From a virus, in IMG/VR virus record IMGVR_UViG_3300037847_001407, positions 491-26,990 of that record: a stretch of DNA of 26,500 nt, one strand, 5' to 3'. Both the position numbers and the translations under genes were made by a program. Under the pieces are notes generated by a model that was not told where the DNA came from, ran no database searches, and worked only from the letters and a program-made list of their open reading frames with translations. Shown here one piece after another: positions 895-25,844 of this stretch (position 1 is the first letter of the stretch; the number at the start of each line of letters is the position of its first letter).

Positions 895-1377
895 CTACGA
901 AGCGTCTGATGAGCTAGAAATACCCATGAACTTCAGGACCACAGTTGTGTCTGCTCCGGGGTCACCGGAAAGAACAACCTCAACTTCATCTGCTGTCTCT
1001 GTAGCGGCTGTTGTTGTACCGCCAGACATACCCAATACACCATTACATGGGAAGAAGCCTTTGAAGCCAGTTGAGTCTACTGCGGCAGTGATGCCATCAA
1101 CGAACCCATCTGTGTCTGCGTCTGTGCCAATATCAATAAGATTGACAGAGTTAGATGCCGCGCCAGTACAGGCGACCATAACAGCCATAGGAATAAAGTT
1201 TGATGGAATGCCGATAGCGGATTCTTTTCCTGTAGTAGCACCATTAGCAACTGTTACAGTAGCGGTGTAAACAGAAAGTGTCATCTCACTGGTGAGGTCA
1301 CCAGTTGTCGCGCTTTTAATAACATTCTTGAAACCGTTTTCTGAGCGGACGGGACCGCTAAAAGTAGTATTAGCCAT
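895..1377 (-). CDS. putative structural protein (begins MANTTFSGPVRSENGF)
   Basis: A 160-residue protein whose N-terminus, with the sequence NTTFSGPVRSENGF, resembles conserved putative structural proteins of marine phages (recollection, not searched). The rest is rich in Ala, Gly, Thr, Val and Asp with short beta-prone stretches, and has no membrane segment. AAGGAG lies six bases upstream of the ATG. It is the first gene after the terminator that follows the major capsid gene, so it may be transcribed at a lower level than capsid or from its own promoter in 1378-1440; no convincing promoter was found there. A decoration or fibre role is possible but unproven. Confidence 0.65.
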   Translation of the reverse strand: MANTTFSGPVRSENGFKNVIKSATTGDLTSEMTLSVYTATVTVANGATTGKESAIGIPSNFIPMAVMVACTGAASNSVNLIDIGTDADTDGFVDGITAAVDSTGFKGFFPCNGVLGMSGGTTTAATETADEVEVVLSGDPGADTTVVLKFMGISSSSDAS

Positions 1378-1442
1378 GGGAACTCCTTGTCTTGGCTAGT
1401 GTCAGCCGCAGTATGCGACTGTCAAGGTTCACAATCATTATA

Positions 1443-9179: not shown

Positions 9180-9411
9180 CAGACACGCATCTGTTTAGTA
9201 AAACTGATTTGGCAAGCTCTAACAAAAAGACCATATCGGGCGCTTTACCATGAGATGTAGCCATAAACAGATTCCCCTCGTCTGTCCAGCCAATAACCAT
9301 AGCCTCAGTCATGGTTACCTCTTCCCGAAGAACACCCAGCATTTCTTTTGGGTCTAAATCAGGCTCTTCATGTATAGATGGATTACCGGGAAACTGTATT
9401 ATATTGGTCAT
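9172..9411 (-). CDS. conserved small protein (begins MTNIIQFPG)
   Basis: A 79-residue acidic protein starting MTNIIQFPG and containing MVIGWTDEGNLFMATSHG, a strand-turn-strand pattern. Similar short proteins with an N-terminal IIQFP motif are common in phage and alphaproteobacterial genomes; function is unknown to me. The frame can extend to TTG two codons upstream, but the ATG at 9409-9411 with GGAAGAG upstream is preferred. It overlaps its neighbours on both sides, so translation of the three genes is coupled. It is the second gene of the late operon. Confidence 0.7.
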   Translation of the reverse strand: MTNIIQFPGNPSIHEEPDLDPKEMLGVLREEVTMTEAMVIGWTDEGNLFMATSHGKAPDMVFLLELAKSVLLNRCVSDE

Positions 9412-9607
9412 CGTCAATCTCTTCCAGTATCTCTATTCTGTCTCTGTGGATTGATATTTTATCAAGTTCACCCTGAATAGCCTCAAGAATATCGGAATGC
9501 TCTCCTATTCCCGCTGGATTAGATAGATAGACTTTTATGTTTGTTTTGTGCAGTTGAATGTTACCATGAGCTTGAGCAATCAAGGCACGAATTATGTCTT
9601 CTCTCAT
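9383..9607 (-). CDS. first gene of late operon, small helical protein
   Basis: A 74-residue mostly helical protein with the text VYLSNPAGIGEHSDILEAIQ followed by GELDKISIHRDRIEILEE. The motif YL-NP-GIGEH-DI--AI--EL-KI resembles a small conserved family that I recall from phage metagenomes; function is unknown. GGGAG lies about 6 bases before the ATG. It is the promoter-proximal gene of the leftward packaging/head operon and is preceded by a terminator-like hairpin (9626-9671), so its expression may depend on read-through. Confidence 0.75.
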   Translation of the reverse strand: MREDIIRALIAQAHGNIQLHKTNIKVYLSNPAGIGEHSDILEAIQGELDKISIHRDRIEILEEIDDDQYNTVSR

Positions 9608-9625: not shown

Positions 9626-9671
9626 AAAAAATGACGGTGGGGGAGCAAAGGGAGGATGCTCTACCCCACCG
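9626..9671 (-). terminator. terminator-like hairpin in the late-operon leader
   Basis: On the minus strand, CGGTGGGG (9671-9664) pairs with CCCCACCG (9642-9635) and an inner GAGC/GCTC extends the stem. It is followed by TCA and TTTTTT (9631-9626). It stands 19 bases before the first late gene rather than after a gene, which suggests attenuation or controlled antitermination of the late operon. Confidence 0.6.
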
Positions 9672-9696
9672 GAAGCGCCGGGAGACGTTGCGCTTC
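9672..9696. repeat. hairpin GAAGCGC/GCGCTTC abutting the leader terminator
   Basis: A perfect 7-base inverted repeat with an 11-base loop, directly upstream (minus strand) of the terminator stem with no spacer. The two stems could stack in the nascent leader RNA. Confidence 0.5.
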
Positions 9697-9710
9697 AAAT
9701 TTTAGTATAT

Positions 9711-9793
9711 AGTACATTATGTACTTTAACTAGAGATGTATATAATATATAATACTACTATGTACTATATAGTACATATGTACTATAGTACAT
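9711..9793. promoter_or_regulatory. AT-rich divergent control region with nested GTAC palindromes
   Basis: It contains AGTACAT-T-ATGTACT (9711-9725), an 18-base perfect palindrome ATGTACTATATAGTACAT (9760-9777) and an adjacent 16-base perfect palindrome ATGTACTATAGTACAT (9778-9793). Two overlapping TATAAT boxes lie at 9741-9746 and 9748-9753 on the plus strand; TTTAAC at 9725-9730 is 17 bases before the second, a weak -35. The region lies between the leftward late operon and the rightward gene set at 10012. A nearly identical module recurs at 22006-22042 on the other strand. Confidence 0.65.
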
Positions 9794-9794
9794 T

Positions 9795-9862
9795 AGCCTA
9801 GTCCATCCTATTCGGATGGGAACCAGCCCCATCCCGCCTTCGGGCATTTAGAGGTGGCTAGG
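9795..9862 (+). ncRNA. putative structured RNA element with competing hairpins
   Basis: GCCTAG (9796-9801) pairs with CTAGGC (9858-9863) and closes a multibranch loop holding CCATCC/GGATGG (9803-9808 with 9814-9819) and CCCG-CCTT-CGGG (9833-9844). GGATGGG (9814-9820) can instead pair with CCCATCC (9828-9834), destroying both inner hairpins. The element lies just downstream of the rightward promoter candidate. The rest of 9863-10011 holds a CCAGA/TCTGG hairpin (9875-9888) and no gene. Confidence 0.45.
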
Positions 9863-10011
9863 CGTTTTACCGGACCAGACAACTCTGGAAGCATGGTAGG
9901 GGAGAGCGGCTTTGGCTTTAATTGTAGAAAAAAAACCTACAGTATATAGTCATCACGAATCGGAAAAGTCAGAGCCGCAACACCTTTCTGAAAAGAAAGA
10001 GGGAGAGGCCA

Positions 10012-13465: not shown

Positions 13466-13489
13466 ATCAACAATCTTTTGGAGTACCAA

Positions 13490-14170
13490 ATGACTAATAT
13501 TGTAACTGTTTCCGATACCGTTCTTGACGCAATGGCAAGCAACGAAATGCAAAACGAAGCCCTTACTGGTGAGGCAAAGGGTATCAACGAACAGCGCCAA
13601 GCGCTGAAGATGGACAGCTATTGTCAACTGATTGCTGGCATTGCCCATCACAAACTTACCGCCAAGGGTCATCTGCCAACCACCATATCAAAGGGTGTAA
13701 AAGAAATGCTGACCAACTACGTTGGCCTTACTGACAGCATGGCTGAAAAAATGCACAAGAATGCAGTCGGCGCTAGACGTGAGTTAGAAATTGGCGGCAA
13801 CAATGTCACCCCACAAATGGTGGCAGATGTTTTTGCTGGCGCTGGCATTACATCAGAAGCCAAGTTGATTAAGCTGGTTGGCGGTCAGAAGAAGCAGACC
13901 AAAATACAAAAGCTGGTTCAGCAGATTGTCGGCAAGCCGTCTAAGACTGGCAAGGCATACATTGGCGGTCTGGTAAAGACAAACGCAGACGGTAAAAAGA
14001 CCAATGAGTTTGATGAAGCCCAGCTTGAAGAGTTCAAGAATGCTCTTGAAGATGCACTGCGTGTAAGGCGTGAGGCTGAAGCCGCCGCACAAGAGGCGGC
14101 AGACAAAGCCCAAGCCGAAAATGATGCAGTCAATGAGATGACTGCCCAACTTGAAGGTCAGGCCGCTTAG
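13490..14170 (+). CDS. unknown protein upstream of MoxR ATPase
   Basis: A 226-residue protein. Residues about 15-140 are helical and globular, including LTNYVGLTDSMAEKMHKNAV and NNVTPQMVADVFAGAGITSE. Residues about 175-226 form an Ala/Glu/Gln-rich coiled coil. No family was recognised. The frame opens 18 codons earlier, but the ATG at 13490 has TTTTGGAG six bases upstream. The gene is in the same transcription unit as the MoxR and VWA genes, so it may be an adaptor or substrate-recognition partner for that pair. That is inference. The stop codon lies in the loop of a stable hairpin. Confidence 0.7.
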   Translation: MTNIVTVSDTVLDAMASNEMQNEALTGEAKGINEQRQALKMDSYCQLIAGIAHHKLTAKGHLPTTISKGVKEMLTNYVGLTDSMAEKMHKNAVGARRELEIGGNNVTPQMVADVFAGAGITSEAKLIKLVGGQKKQTKIQKLVQQIVGKPSKTGKAYIGGLVKTNADGKKTNEFDEAQLEEFKNALEDALRVRREAEAAAQEAADKAQAENDAVNEMTAQLEGQAA

Positions 14171-20159: not shown

Positions 20160-21920
20160 CTAAAATGGTACATCTTCAGAATTGTACGATGGTACATCTG
20201 GAAAGTTATCCTCGCCACCAATCGAGTAACGAGAGGTGACTGGGTTGAAAAATAATTCAGCCACACCCTGTTTACCCACCCAACTAAATCGACACTTCCA
20301 AACATGAACCTCGCTAATTGCATTATTCACTGGGTCTGGCCTGTGTACAGACAGCCCCACATCCGCTTTTGCAAACCAAGCCGCGCTTCCAGAGATATCA
20401 TACCCCTTAGGCGCTGGCACTTTCCCATCTGTGCCGCGCATCATTTTTGTTGGGTGCGCGACAAACCAAAGATGGATGCCGTGAGACTGAGCGAAGACCC
20501 GAAGCTGGGTCAGCATCTCACTAATCCAATCTGTCTCGCTCATATCGCCATTTTTTTGAATGTAATTGTATGGGTCGATAATAGCGCCGCGAATACCGTG
20601 TCTCATTACAGCTATCTTCAATCTCTCTACAATACCCTCTATCGTGGCTAGTGAGCCATCGTTCTGATACAGAAAGCTAAAGTGTTCCCGCACAAAGTCT
20701 TTGCCTCTGTCCAATTCGTCAGGCGTGAGCCGTGGCGTTACGCCAGTAAAGAACGGCTTGGCAAAGTGCTTGCTAATTAATTTGGCAATGTGTAGGCGAG
20801 GCTCATTCTCGAAGGAACAGATGGCAAACTTCCATCCCTTTTCCTCTGCCAAGTTGACCATAATCTGGTCAATAAATTCTGACTTGCCTGATGACGGGTG
20901 TCCTGTAACCACAGTCAACTGACCCTCTACAATCGTGTAATATTCATCCACGTTGATGTAGCCAGTGGATGCACCGCTACCCATTCCCTTTTCATAAATC
21001 TCATCCAACTCATCGTAAAAATGCGAAGCATCGTAGAGTCCAGCGACAGGCCACGGGATAATCTTTGAAACAACTTTATCCAGACCTTTGCTGCCATGTT
21101 TCAGCAAAACATCATTGGCATCTTTACAATCTTCTGGAAACTCAACCTTCCAGCACTTGTCTTTGCCAATTCTCCTCGCTATCTCCTCAGCCATAGCCTG
21201 ACCAGCGCCATCAGAGTCTGTCGCAATTATTATTCTGTTTGCTTTCTCTATCTTCTTCTTTGCATCCCACAGAAACTTAAACTTACTGTCTTCTTGTGGG
21301 TCAATTCTGCCATCCACAACCTTCATCACCGCGCCATTCGGTACAGACACACAGCTTTCAAAGCCAGCTTCCATGAATGCCAACACGTCCATCTCGCCCT
21401 CGCAGATAAAGAGGTCATCTCCTGCCACAACTGAGTCAAGATTAAAAAATGATGCTGGTGAGCCGTTACAAGCAAAACCCTTGTCGGTTATCGCTCTGAT
21501 TTTTGCGGCGTATGTTTGGCCTTGGTTGGTGTAGGGGAAAACAACACAGTCAGTTTGGCTCTGTACCGCGCCGATGTAATGCACACCAGATTTCACCTTT
21601 GCCTTTCTGGCTGTGTCCTCAGATATACCGCGCCCCTTGAGCCAGCTTATTGTTTTATCGTTTAAATCATCCCAGTTATGTTGAACAGCTAGTGACACTT
21701 TGTTACTCCTCCTCGCTGGCATATATCGCTCTTCTAACGCCACGACACCATTGGCGTTACAGTGCCAGCAGTTATATAAAATACCTTCATCGCTCACCTT
21801 CAATGAAAGTGTGCGCTCCCTCTTTTTCTTCCTTTGGGGTGAGCATATCGGGCAAACAACTTTGTGTTGACCCTCGCCCTTACGGAGTGCTTCTCCGCGA
21901 ATTAGATGTTCTGTTTGCAT
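20160..21920 (-). CDS. Toprim primase-helicase (T7 gp4 / Twinkle type)
   Basis: A 586-residue fusion. Zinc finger CPIC at 23-26 with CWHC at 51-54; Toprim domain with EGEMD at 174-178 and DSDGAG at 235-240; RecA-like helicase with Walker A GHPSSGKS at 340-347, Walker B AIIDP at 446-450, and a conserved HPTKM at 489-493. It should prime and unwind at the phage fork. A longer frame opens at 21977, but the ATG at 21920 has GGAG 8 bases upstream and starts just before the zinc finger. The C-terminus ends NSEDVPF, an SSB-like acidic tip. A GTAC palindrome (20182-20197) lies within its last codons. Confidence 0.92.
   Translation of the reverse strand: MQTEHLIRGEALRKGEGQHKVVCPICSPQRKKKRERTLSLKVSDEGILYNCWHCNANGVVALEERYMPARRSNKVSLAVQHNWDDLNDKTISWLKGRGISEDTARKAKVKSGVHYIGAVQSQTDCVVFPYTNQGQTYAAKIRAITDKGFACNGSPASFFNLDSVVAGDDLFICEGEMDVLAFMEAGFESCVSVPNGAVMKVVDGRIDPQEDSKFKFLWDAKKKIEKANRIIIATDSDGAGQAMAEEIARRIGKDKCWKVEFPEDCKDANDVLLKHGSKGLDKVVSKIIPWPVAGLYDASHFYDELDEIYEKGMGSGASTGYINVDEYYTIVEGQLTVVTGHPSSGKSEFIDQIMVNLAEEKGWKFAICSFENEPRLHIAKLISKHFAKPFFTGVTPRLTPDELDRGKDFVREHFSFLYQNDGSLATIEGIVERLKIAVMRHGIRGAIIDPYNYIQKNGDMSETDWISEMLTQLRVFAQSHGIHLWFVAHPTKMMRGTDGKVPAPKGYDISGSAAWFAKADVGLSVHRPDPVNNAISEVHVWKCRFSWVGKQGVAELFFNPVTSRYSIGGEDNFPDVPSYNSEDVPF
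20182..20197. promoter_or_regulatory. GTAC-family site inside the primase-helicase 3' end
   Basis: TTGTAC-GATG-GTACAT (one mismatch) lies in the last coding bases and about 30 bases upstream (minus strand) of the DUF6378-like start. GGTACATCT occurs twice here (20167 and 20191). Confidence 0.45.
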
Positions 21921-21942: not shown

Positions 21943-21971
21943 ACGATATGCCGATGGTCAAATACTGTCAA
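21943..21971 (-). promoter_or_regulatory. sigma-70-like promoter for the primase operon
   Basis: TTGACA (21971-21966) and TATCGT (21948-21943) on the minus strand are separated by 17 bases. Predicted transcription start is near 21936, leaving a short leader with GGAG before the ATG at 21920. Confidence 0.55.
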
Positions 21972-22005
21972 TATCAATTTTGGGGTAAGTTCGATATAGG
22001 TACAC

Positions 22006-22042
22006 TATGTACTATAAAGTACATAATGTATTATATATTATA
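22006..22042 (-). promoter_or_regulatory. AT-rich module with GTAC palindrome (second copy)
   Basis: On the minus strand TATAATATATAATAC (22042-22028) is followed after 3 bases by ATGTACTTTATAGTACAT (22024-22007). The same 15-mer and a 17-of-18 identical palindrome occur at 9741-9777 on the plus strand. It lies 35 bases upstream of the consensus promoter for primase. Confidence 0.6.
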
Positions 22043-22060
22043 TATACAGTTAAAATACAT

Positions 22061-22076
22061 TTGTACTATGGCACTA
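22061..22076. promoter_or_regulatory. degenerate GTAC-family site
   Basis: TTGTAC-TATG-GCACTA: perfect left half, 4 of 6 on the right. It overlaps the stop codon of the gene ending at 22074. Confidence 0.35.
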
Positions 22077-22382
22077 TTTTCTATCAATCAAATCTTTTAA
22101 TTTACGACCTTCATATCTGGCAACGGCTGGCTTGGATTCGAGAATATGAATAAAGTTATTTTTCATTTTGTCGTAGTCTATATCAGCTAAATCACACACT
22201 GTTATGAAGTCTTCTGTGTGAATCCACATCTCTATTATTTCACGTTCCTTGGGTTCATTCAGGTAGGCATCTGAGATAGCTTGGGATATCACCGCTCTCC
22301 AAAGGTGACACTCTGATGATTGTTCTTGGCCTTTCCCTATCAAGCCCCCAGTAAATATTCTTCTGCTTAACCTGTCGGTCAT
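22074..22382 (-). CDS. unknown helical protein following RusA
   Basis: A 102-residue helical protein. HLWRAVISQAISDAY (residues 26-40) and EDFITVCDLADIDYDKMKNN (56-75) resemble a family of short phage proteins often found beside RusA resolvases; function unknown. The ATG at 22382 has GGGGGTGA nine bases upstream, so this start is well supported although it lies 128 bases inside RusA in another frame. No internal ATG precedes the conserved part; TTG at codon 14 is an alternative. An HTH-like role is possible, not shown. Confidence 0.68.
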   Translation of the reverse strand: MTDRLSRRIFTGGLIGKGQEQSSECHLWRAVISQAISDAYLNEPKEREIIEMWIHTEDFITVCDLADIDYDKMKNNFIHILESKPAVARYEGRKLKDLIDRK

Positions 22383-25208: not shown

Positions 25209-25665
25209 GGTAAAAGATGCCGCAGTGCATTTTGAGGCAGTAAAAACATCCATGTCTCAAAGCAAGCAAGGCACTATCTTACGCTTGGCACTGCACCCAA
25301 ACGAAGTTCCCCCCAGTCTTCATACTGACTGGGTTGGCTCACGGTACATGGTTGCCATGGTTAAGTTAGATGACCATGACCAGCCTGAGATTTCTACAGA
25401 GCAACGCGAGACTGAGCGACTTATCGCCAGTGCTGGTATGCTGTGCAGAAATGTTGACTTTGCTCACTATATACATGAGCGAAATCTAATAGACGACTAC
25501 AGCGCCGTAGATGACGAGAAGCGTGAGAAGCAAGTGGCGCACGGTCTAAGGCTTTACTTGGGCATACCAAGCAGGGCTGATATGAAAACGGACTCCCAAG
25601 CAAGGGAGAAATTTAAATCTCTATCTGAGGAGTTTACAAAATGGAAGCAGGGGCGTTCACAATGA
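25201..25665 (+). CDS. conserved phage protein of unknown function, 154 residues
   Basis: The text ILRLALHPNEVPPSLHTDWV then GSRYMVAMVKLDD resembles a conserved phage family with the pattern L-L-HP-E-P--L---VG-RY-VA-V-L-D, function unknown to me. The second half is helical and charged. The ATG at 25201 has GGGGG 5-6 bases upstream; an ATG at 25189 is less well placed. Its stop overlaps the next start as ATGA. Confidence 0.68.
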   Translation: MAEVKDAAVHFEAVKTSMSQSKQGTILRLALHPNEVPPSLHTDWVGSRYMVAMVKLDDHDQPEISTEQRETERLIASAGMLCRNVDFAHYIHERNLIDDYSAVDDEKREKQVAHGLRLYLGIPSRADMKTDSQAREKFKSLSEEFTKWKQGRSQ

Positions 25666-25844
25666 AGACAGATTTTATAGATGCAAAGGCAATAGCTGAT
25701 ATGCTGTCAATCAAACCAAAGTCAATTCAGTATGTAATGGAAAGTGACGAAAGGTTCCCAAGGCCTATTTCTTTTTCACCCAGAATAAAGAGGTGGAAGA
25801 GGCAAGAGGTGGAGGACTGGTTGCAGAAAAAGATGGGCGAGTAA
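25662..25844 (+). CDS. AlpA-like / excisionase-type HTH protein
   Basis: A 60-residue protein with an HTH followed by a wing: DAKAIADMLSIKPKSIQYVM then RFPRPISFSPRIKRWKRQEV and EDWL. The motif FP-P--F----RWK--EVE-WL is typical of AlpA-type and excisionase-type MerR-like regulators. AGGGG lies 8 bases before the ATG at 25662. It is the last gene of the recombination operon, and a perfect GTAC palindrome begins on the base after its stop codon. It is therefore one candidate to bind the GTAC family; that is a guess from position. Confidence 0.75.
   Translation: MKTDFIDAKAIADMLSIKPKSIQYVMESDERFPRPISFSPRIKRWKRQEVEDWLQKKMGE

Follow-up and report, generated by a model that had tools for sequence, protein, structure and literature searches.

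Paired control regions with jointly diverging repeats in a group of uncultured marine phages

In lambdoid phages, one regulator serves two operator regions, OL and OR, which overlap divergent promoters, and its specificity is variable among relatives. Cluster A mycobacteriophages, which are temperate and have a known immunity repressor, carry up to about 30 asymmetric sites genome-wide, and the distance between their motifs relates to the distance between their repressors (PMC6550527, PMC9283540). The chromosomal island EcCICFT073, which carries a primase gene, requires AlpA for its induction, and AlpA also acts as an activator at its own promoter (PMC6092414).

Very little is known about how uncultured marine phages are regulated. 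In the group described here, comparison alone yields control regions, a primase promoter, a probable late promoter, and a candidate regulator. Two of its control regions, C1 and C2, appear to be a pair of operators read by a single phage-specific protein that binds DNA in a sequence-specific manner, a reading to which we give a probability of about two in three.

The two control regions and their setting

The window (the whole stretch of DNA analyzed, 26,500 nucleotides) comes from a 26,990-bp (27-kb) IMG/VR contig of an uncultured marine phage; a relative, G001, is 57 kb. Matches to PHROG families include a primase/helicase, terminase, portal, RusA-like resolvase, exonuclease, and Sak-like annealing protein, among others. 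No close cultured relative was found, and a nucleotide search against named phages gave zero matches. By portal protein, the cultured relatives are HTVC023P, HTVC027P, and CRP-901/902, whose portals resemble that of this phage (38–46% identity) but whose replication genes, by annotation, do not. No integrase or CI-like gene was noticed among the scanned proteins of the 57-kb relative G001. Window 1375–1427 (minus strand) matches the Rfam Mu-gpT-DE RNA (59.1 bits), just upstream of a 160-aa gene that comes after the likely capsid gene. All of the evidence presented here is sequence, and the contigs are metagenomic, such that some may be fragments or chimeras. The features discussed below are as follows.

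9383..9607, minus strand: first gene of the leftward structural operon, start at 9607; terminase large subunit, portal, and others follow
9700..9793, no strand: copy 1 control region C1, made up of GTACAT dyads and an AT-rich core; at the corresponding position in all relatives having both loci
9704..9732, minus strand: leftward (late) promoter-like element CTAGTTA-N17-TATACT; -35 at 9732–9727, -10 at 9709–9704
9711..9725, no strand: dyad AGTACAT-T-ATGTACT (= AGTACATTATGTACT), within the leftward promoter spacer
9726..9753, plus strand: rightward promoter-like element TTAACT-N16-TATAAT, read from the sequence; overlaps the 15-mer of the earlier note
9760..9777, no strand: palindrome of copy 1, ATGTACTATATAGTACAT, read from the sequence
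9778..9793, no strand: second right-hand dyad, ATGTACTATAGTACAT, read from the sequence
20160..21920, minus strand: DNA primase/helicase gene (PHROG phrog_239, E 2e-89)
21943..21971, minus strand: sigma70-like putative primase promoter TTGACA-N17-TATCGT, 36 bp downstream of the C2 palindrome
21999..22067, minus strand: copy 2 control region C2, which aligns with C1 over about 76 bp
Parts of C2, minus strand: degenerate dyad 22067–22054, 15-mer 22042–22028, palindrome 22024–22007, degenerate dyad 22013–21999
25662..25844, plus strand: AlpA/excisionase-like winged-HTH protein, 60 aa (Pfam PF05930, E 3.8e-5; AF2 pLDDT 86)

On one side of C1 is the leftward structural operon, and on the other are the rightward early genes; C2 lies directly upstream of the primase-helicase, 12 kb away in the genome. 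An earlier note on this DNA had described a module at each place, consisting of a 15-mer followed by a palindrome, and both modules are borne out. The 15-mer TATAATATATAATAC is identical at 9741–9755 (plus) and 22042–22028 (minus), the 18-bp palindrome differs at one position (ATGTACTATATAGTACAT at 9760–9777 and ATGTACTTTATAGTACAT at 22024–22007, minus), and the gaps between 15-mer and palindrome are 4 nt in copy 1 and 3 nt in copy 2, as had been noted. The TTTAACT reported before both copies is indeed present, but not at equal spacing, its distance to the 15-mer being 9 nt in copy 1 and 5 nt in copy 2. That description had overlooked the late structural operon, which copy 1 also faces, as well as half-sites in the form of dyads (9711–9725 and 9778–9793) and degenerate dyads (22067–22054 and 22013–21999). 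The C1/C2 module alignment has a score of 44, whereas the best of 2,000 dinucleotide shuffles reaches 30, and the 18-mer with up to three mismatches gives eight strand-matches, compared with 0.04 expected by chance. A chance origin of the likeness is excluded by the shuffles.

A search for further copies, which the earlier note had proposed, found no third exact copy in the 26,990-bp record, and G001 (57 kb) contains the same two copies and no others at up to two mismatches. Among 2.9 million viral contigs, 79 stretches match the exact 18-mer pattern. Of these, 33 belong to this phage group, as sites of copy 1 or copy 2, and nearly all of the 46 matches outside the group are one repeated coding sequence of AT-rich phages. 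In bacterial genomes, the 18-mer has 27 scattered matches in 257 Gb, which look like chance.

Promoter elements and the leader of the structural operon

A promoter element next to the primase gene is conserved throughout the group. The pattern TTGACN-N17/18-TAWNNT occurs within 58 nt of the primase start codon in 31 of 31 distinct relatives, compared with 0.14 expected from shuffles. Judging from this sequence conservation, the primase promoter is probably the separate TTGACA-N17-TATCGT element and not the C2 module. The module therefore stands upstream of the likely promoter rather than over it, whereas at C1 a dyad overlaps promoter elements by sequence. Specifically, in the window, the GTACAT dyad AGTACATTATGTACT occupies the spacer of the leftward CTAGTTA-N17-TATACT. 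In several lineages, this element has identical hexamers and the same N17 spacing with a variable spacer sequence, and it is a probable leftward late promoter on these grounds. The probable targets are the first gene of the leftward structural operon (9383..9607) for C1 and the primase/helicase gene (20160..21920) for C2.

The leader of the leftward structural operon (window 9635–9696, minus strand) contains the hairpin GAAGCGC-AAC-GTCTCCCG-GCGCTTC and a second hairpin, CGGTGGGG...CCCCACCG. Among the relatives, the first hairpin has 14 arm/loop combinations in which the arms are fully paired and the GTCTCCCG loop is constant. The presence of this covarying hairpin directly after the leftward promoter supports a transcript start there. 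By its sequence, the GTCTCCCG loop could pair with the GGGAGA ribosome-binding region. Rfam has zero matches near C1, leader hairpins included, and the hairpins look like an undescribed regulatory RNA. On the other side, immediately after copy 1, a GC-rich folded RNA is found at window 9796–9863 (plus strand; z -2.6 for 9790–9905). A diverged version with apparent compensatory changes is present in L278, and L279 and L176 are without this RNA.

Co-diversification of the repeats and the candidate regulator

Relatives down to about 60% primase identity have repeats at both loci, mostly with an AT-rich core, and the repeat differs by lineage. Within one genome, the repeats are usually alike at the two loci; the lineage repeats include GTACAT (in the window, G001, and G002), CGGTAGAC, CTCTCTCTC, ACTAGTAT, and CTAGACTA. 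All occurrences are at C1 or C2 for CGGTAGAC in G006 (five of five in 58 kb), CTCTCTCTC in G020 (seven of seven in a 21.8-kb contig), and TACTAGTA in G035 (12 of 12), as are eight of the nine occurrences of CTAGACTA in G031 (six and two at the two loci). Further lineage motifs are found in G014, G007/G008/G016, G017/G018, and G036. In a 13 x 13 matrix of C1–C2 alignment scores, with cross-genome pairs as the control, the within-genome trace is 159, compared with a maximum of 124 in 100,000 permutations (p ~1e-5); this p-value is descriptive because the C1/C2 boundaries were drawn manually once the pattern had been noticed, and the 13 genomes are partly non-independent (C2 is common to G006 and G019, and the motifs of G031 and G035 are similar). 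The best partner is the genome's own C2 for 8 of the 13 C1 regions and its own C1 for 9 of the 13 C2 regions. The motif is lineage-specific and common to all sites of a genome with the exception of G019, which has different motifs at C1 and C2.

Several genomes depart from the common layout. G019 (L359 + L070) is the only one with clearly different repeats, namely a CTCTCTC hairpin at C1 and CGGTAGAC at C2. Its AlpA and C2 both match those of G006, and this genome may be a recombinant or an assembly chimera. The similarity between C1 and C2 in G004 and G029 is limited to AT-rich sequence. The C2 module is absent in G032–G034, and G033 and G034 have an array at C1 only. These arrays contain three copies of GGTATACC in G033 (C1 13533–13605) and three of GTCTAGAC in G034 (C1 51096–51177), each found nowhere else in the available sequence of that genome.

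These patterns suggest a mechanism in which the repeats (the GTACAT dyads in the window phage), grouped around an AT-rich core, serve as the binding sites of one protein. At C1, two promoters would be within its reach, as it could sit between the -35 and -10 of the leftward late promoter and over the start of the rightward early one. At C2, the sites lie upstream of the separate sigma70 primase promoter, and the protein would act from there. In this manner, it may couple the early/late switch to replication, with repression or activation at either site. Its specificity would shift fast between lineages, with both operator regions shifting along. The sequence comparisons show the paired sites, their joint divergence, and the conserved primase promoter; that a protein binds here, which protein it is, and in which direction it regulates are points that we infer from them. 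Co-regulation through a shared binding protein, as the earlier note suggested, has good support in that the sequences of the two sites change in step from lineage to lineage. The same note had named the loss of similarity in relatives that retain the genes as evidence against its reading. Such loss is literally seen in distant relatives, yet there the two sites have been replaced in concert.

The 60-aa AlpA-like protein is the best candidate for the regulator that would recognize the repeats at C1 and C2; we consider it a lead rather than an identification, at somewhat less than even odds. It passes the Pfam AlpA gathering score (PF05930, 23.9 bits; cut-off 21) and matches an AlpA-family protein in the PDB (8c3t, E 9.9e-7). 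The best Foldseek matches of its model are RdfS, BldC, GIsul2 AlpA, and Pukovnik Xis (TM 0.62–0.75, E ~0.01–0.06), and the protein is predicted to be a winged HTH of the excisionase/MerR type. Of the 14 genomes compared, 13 have an AlpA-like gene, and AlpA is the fastest-changing among the genes tested; in G033, no AlpA was found despite the array at C1. Partial Mantel tests conditioned on primase distance relate the divergence of AlpA to that of the motif (correlation 0.24, p 0.001, 20 loci), a modest effect obtained with the single motif-distance measure tried; six neighboring genes, p158, RusA, exo, Sak, SSB, and HNH, have no such correlation (-0.29 to 0.02). Counter-examples exist. The recognition helix of L075 is nearly identical to that of L066, yet L075 is without CGGTAGAC; that of L019 is nearly identical to the one in the window, yet L019 is without GTACAT; and L066 and L074 have a common motif with divergent AlpA.

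Three other proteins were rejected as the regulator. The one encoded just upstream of C2 (22077–22382) is 75–80% identical between lineages with different motifs and was undetected in several module-bearing lineages. For a 228-aa protein (13484–14170), the window and G002 have just 51% identity, although their motif is the same, and a ParB-like 304-aa protein is missing from several module-bearing lineages. The gene at 22077–22382 (minus strand) encodes a conserved 102-aa protein that overlaps rusA and belongs to no Pfam or PHROG family; perhaps it is an HTH protein.

Other explanations for the likeness of C1 and C2 may be considered. The earlier note took both copies for the same directional early promoter, with TATAATATATAATAC as the -10 and a repressor site over the start, driving both gene sets. 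The identical 15-mer and near-identical palindrome agree with this, and the arrangement is plausible at copy 1, where TTAACT-N16-TATAAT points rightward, dyads are located just downstream, and a dyad lies in the leftward spacer. At copy 2 it fails, as the hexamers are 12 bp apart instead of 16 and the universal TTGACA-N17-TATCGT element lies downstream. The claim that the copies read in the direction of their genes is not conserved either; the shared sequence has the same direction in the window but is reversed at C1 in G006, G007, and, weakly, G017. Moreover, distant lineages carry other repeats instead of the 15-mer and palindrome. With spacing differing between the loci and orientation differing in relatives, the 15-mer was rejected as a promoter at C2, and one repeated sigma70 promoter is a distinctly improbable explanation. 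It also seems unlikely that C1 and C2 are two replication origins, with the AT-rich core as the unwinding element and the lineage-specific repeats as iterons for an initiator. AT-rich cores do lie beside the repeats at both loci in most lineages, are among very few AT-only tracts in most genomes, and at C2 adjoin the primase gene. However, no initiator gene was recognized, the cores are weak in some lineages (G031 and G035), and C1 overlaps promoter elements. Cumulative GC skew does not pick out both loci and is uninformative as an origin test.

Alternatively, the likeness may be kept by recombination (inversion or gene conversion through the phage exonuclease/Sak system) instead of by one protein. 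The copies are inverted repeats in the window phage, blocks of 30–60 bp are common to both loci in some lineages, and exo and Sak genes are present. Against this, every record containing both a primase and a terminase has the two in the same orientation, such that inversion of the 12-kb segment was rejected; the similarity ends at the module; and the shared sequence occurs in both direct and inverted orientations. Because copy number and layout are unequal between C1 and C2, binding sites fit better than block copying, and we regard recombination as quite unlikely. A host regulator may also bind the repeats, with lineages differing because their hosts differ; no known phage repressor family was found. 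For sites this different, however, an unrelated host regulator would have to act at the same pair of loci in every case, and the bacterial 18-mer matches resemble chance, which makes this explanation very improbable.

Comparison with known systems

If paired operators for one phage protein are indeed present, the group offers at least a dozen natural protein/site pairs for studying shifts in DNA-binding specificity that leave a two-site circuit intact, as well as a sequence signature for typing these phages. A bolder proposal, which we consider doubtful at present, is that this large uncultured marine phage group is governed by a master switch, an AlpA-type wHTH protein that has no role in immunity and acts via two operator regions only, with protein and regions repeatedly changing specificity together; this would provide a natural series of matched regulators and operators.

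Small AlpA-family wHTH proteins in phage-like elements are also known from Gram-negative phage-inducible chromosomal islands (PMC6092414) and as P4 Vis. Those elements are satellites, whereas here AlpA belongs to a phage genome of about 57 kb, with a role suggested by correlation only. Like OL and OR of lambdoid phages, C1 and C2 are two operator regions for which one regulator is proposed, with specificity varying between relatives. Unlike OL and OR, they are 12 kb apart, one lies upstream of its promoter and not over it, and no CI/Cro pair was recognized. The nearest known kind is a phage repressor with lineage-specific operators, such as the stoperators of cluster A mycobacteriophages (PMC6550527). 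The cluster A repressor-stoperator system likewise combines phage-specific repeats, one DNA-binding protein, and lineage-specific motifs (PMC6550527, PMC9283540). In comparison, most sites here are dyads or short palindromes, and the scanned proteins include no recognized immunity repressor or integrase. Relative to the known systems, what differs in these phages, which have no recognized lysogeny genes among the scanned proteins, is the restriction of the sites to two loci and their coordinated replacement.
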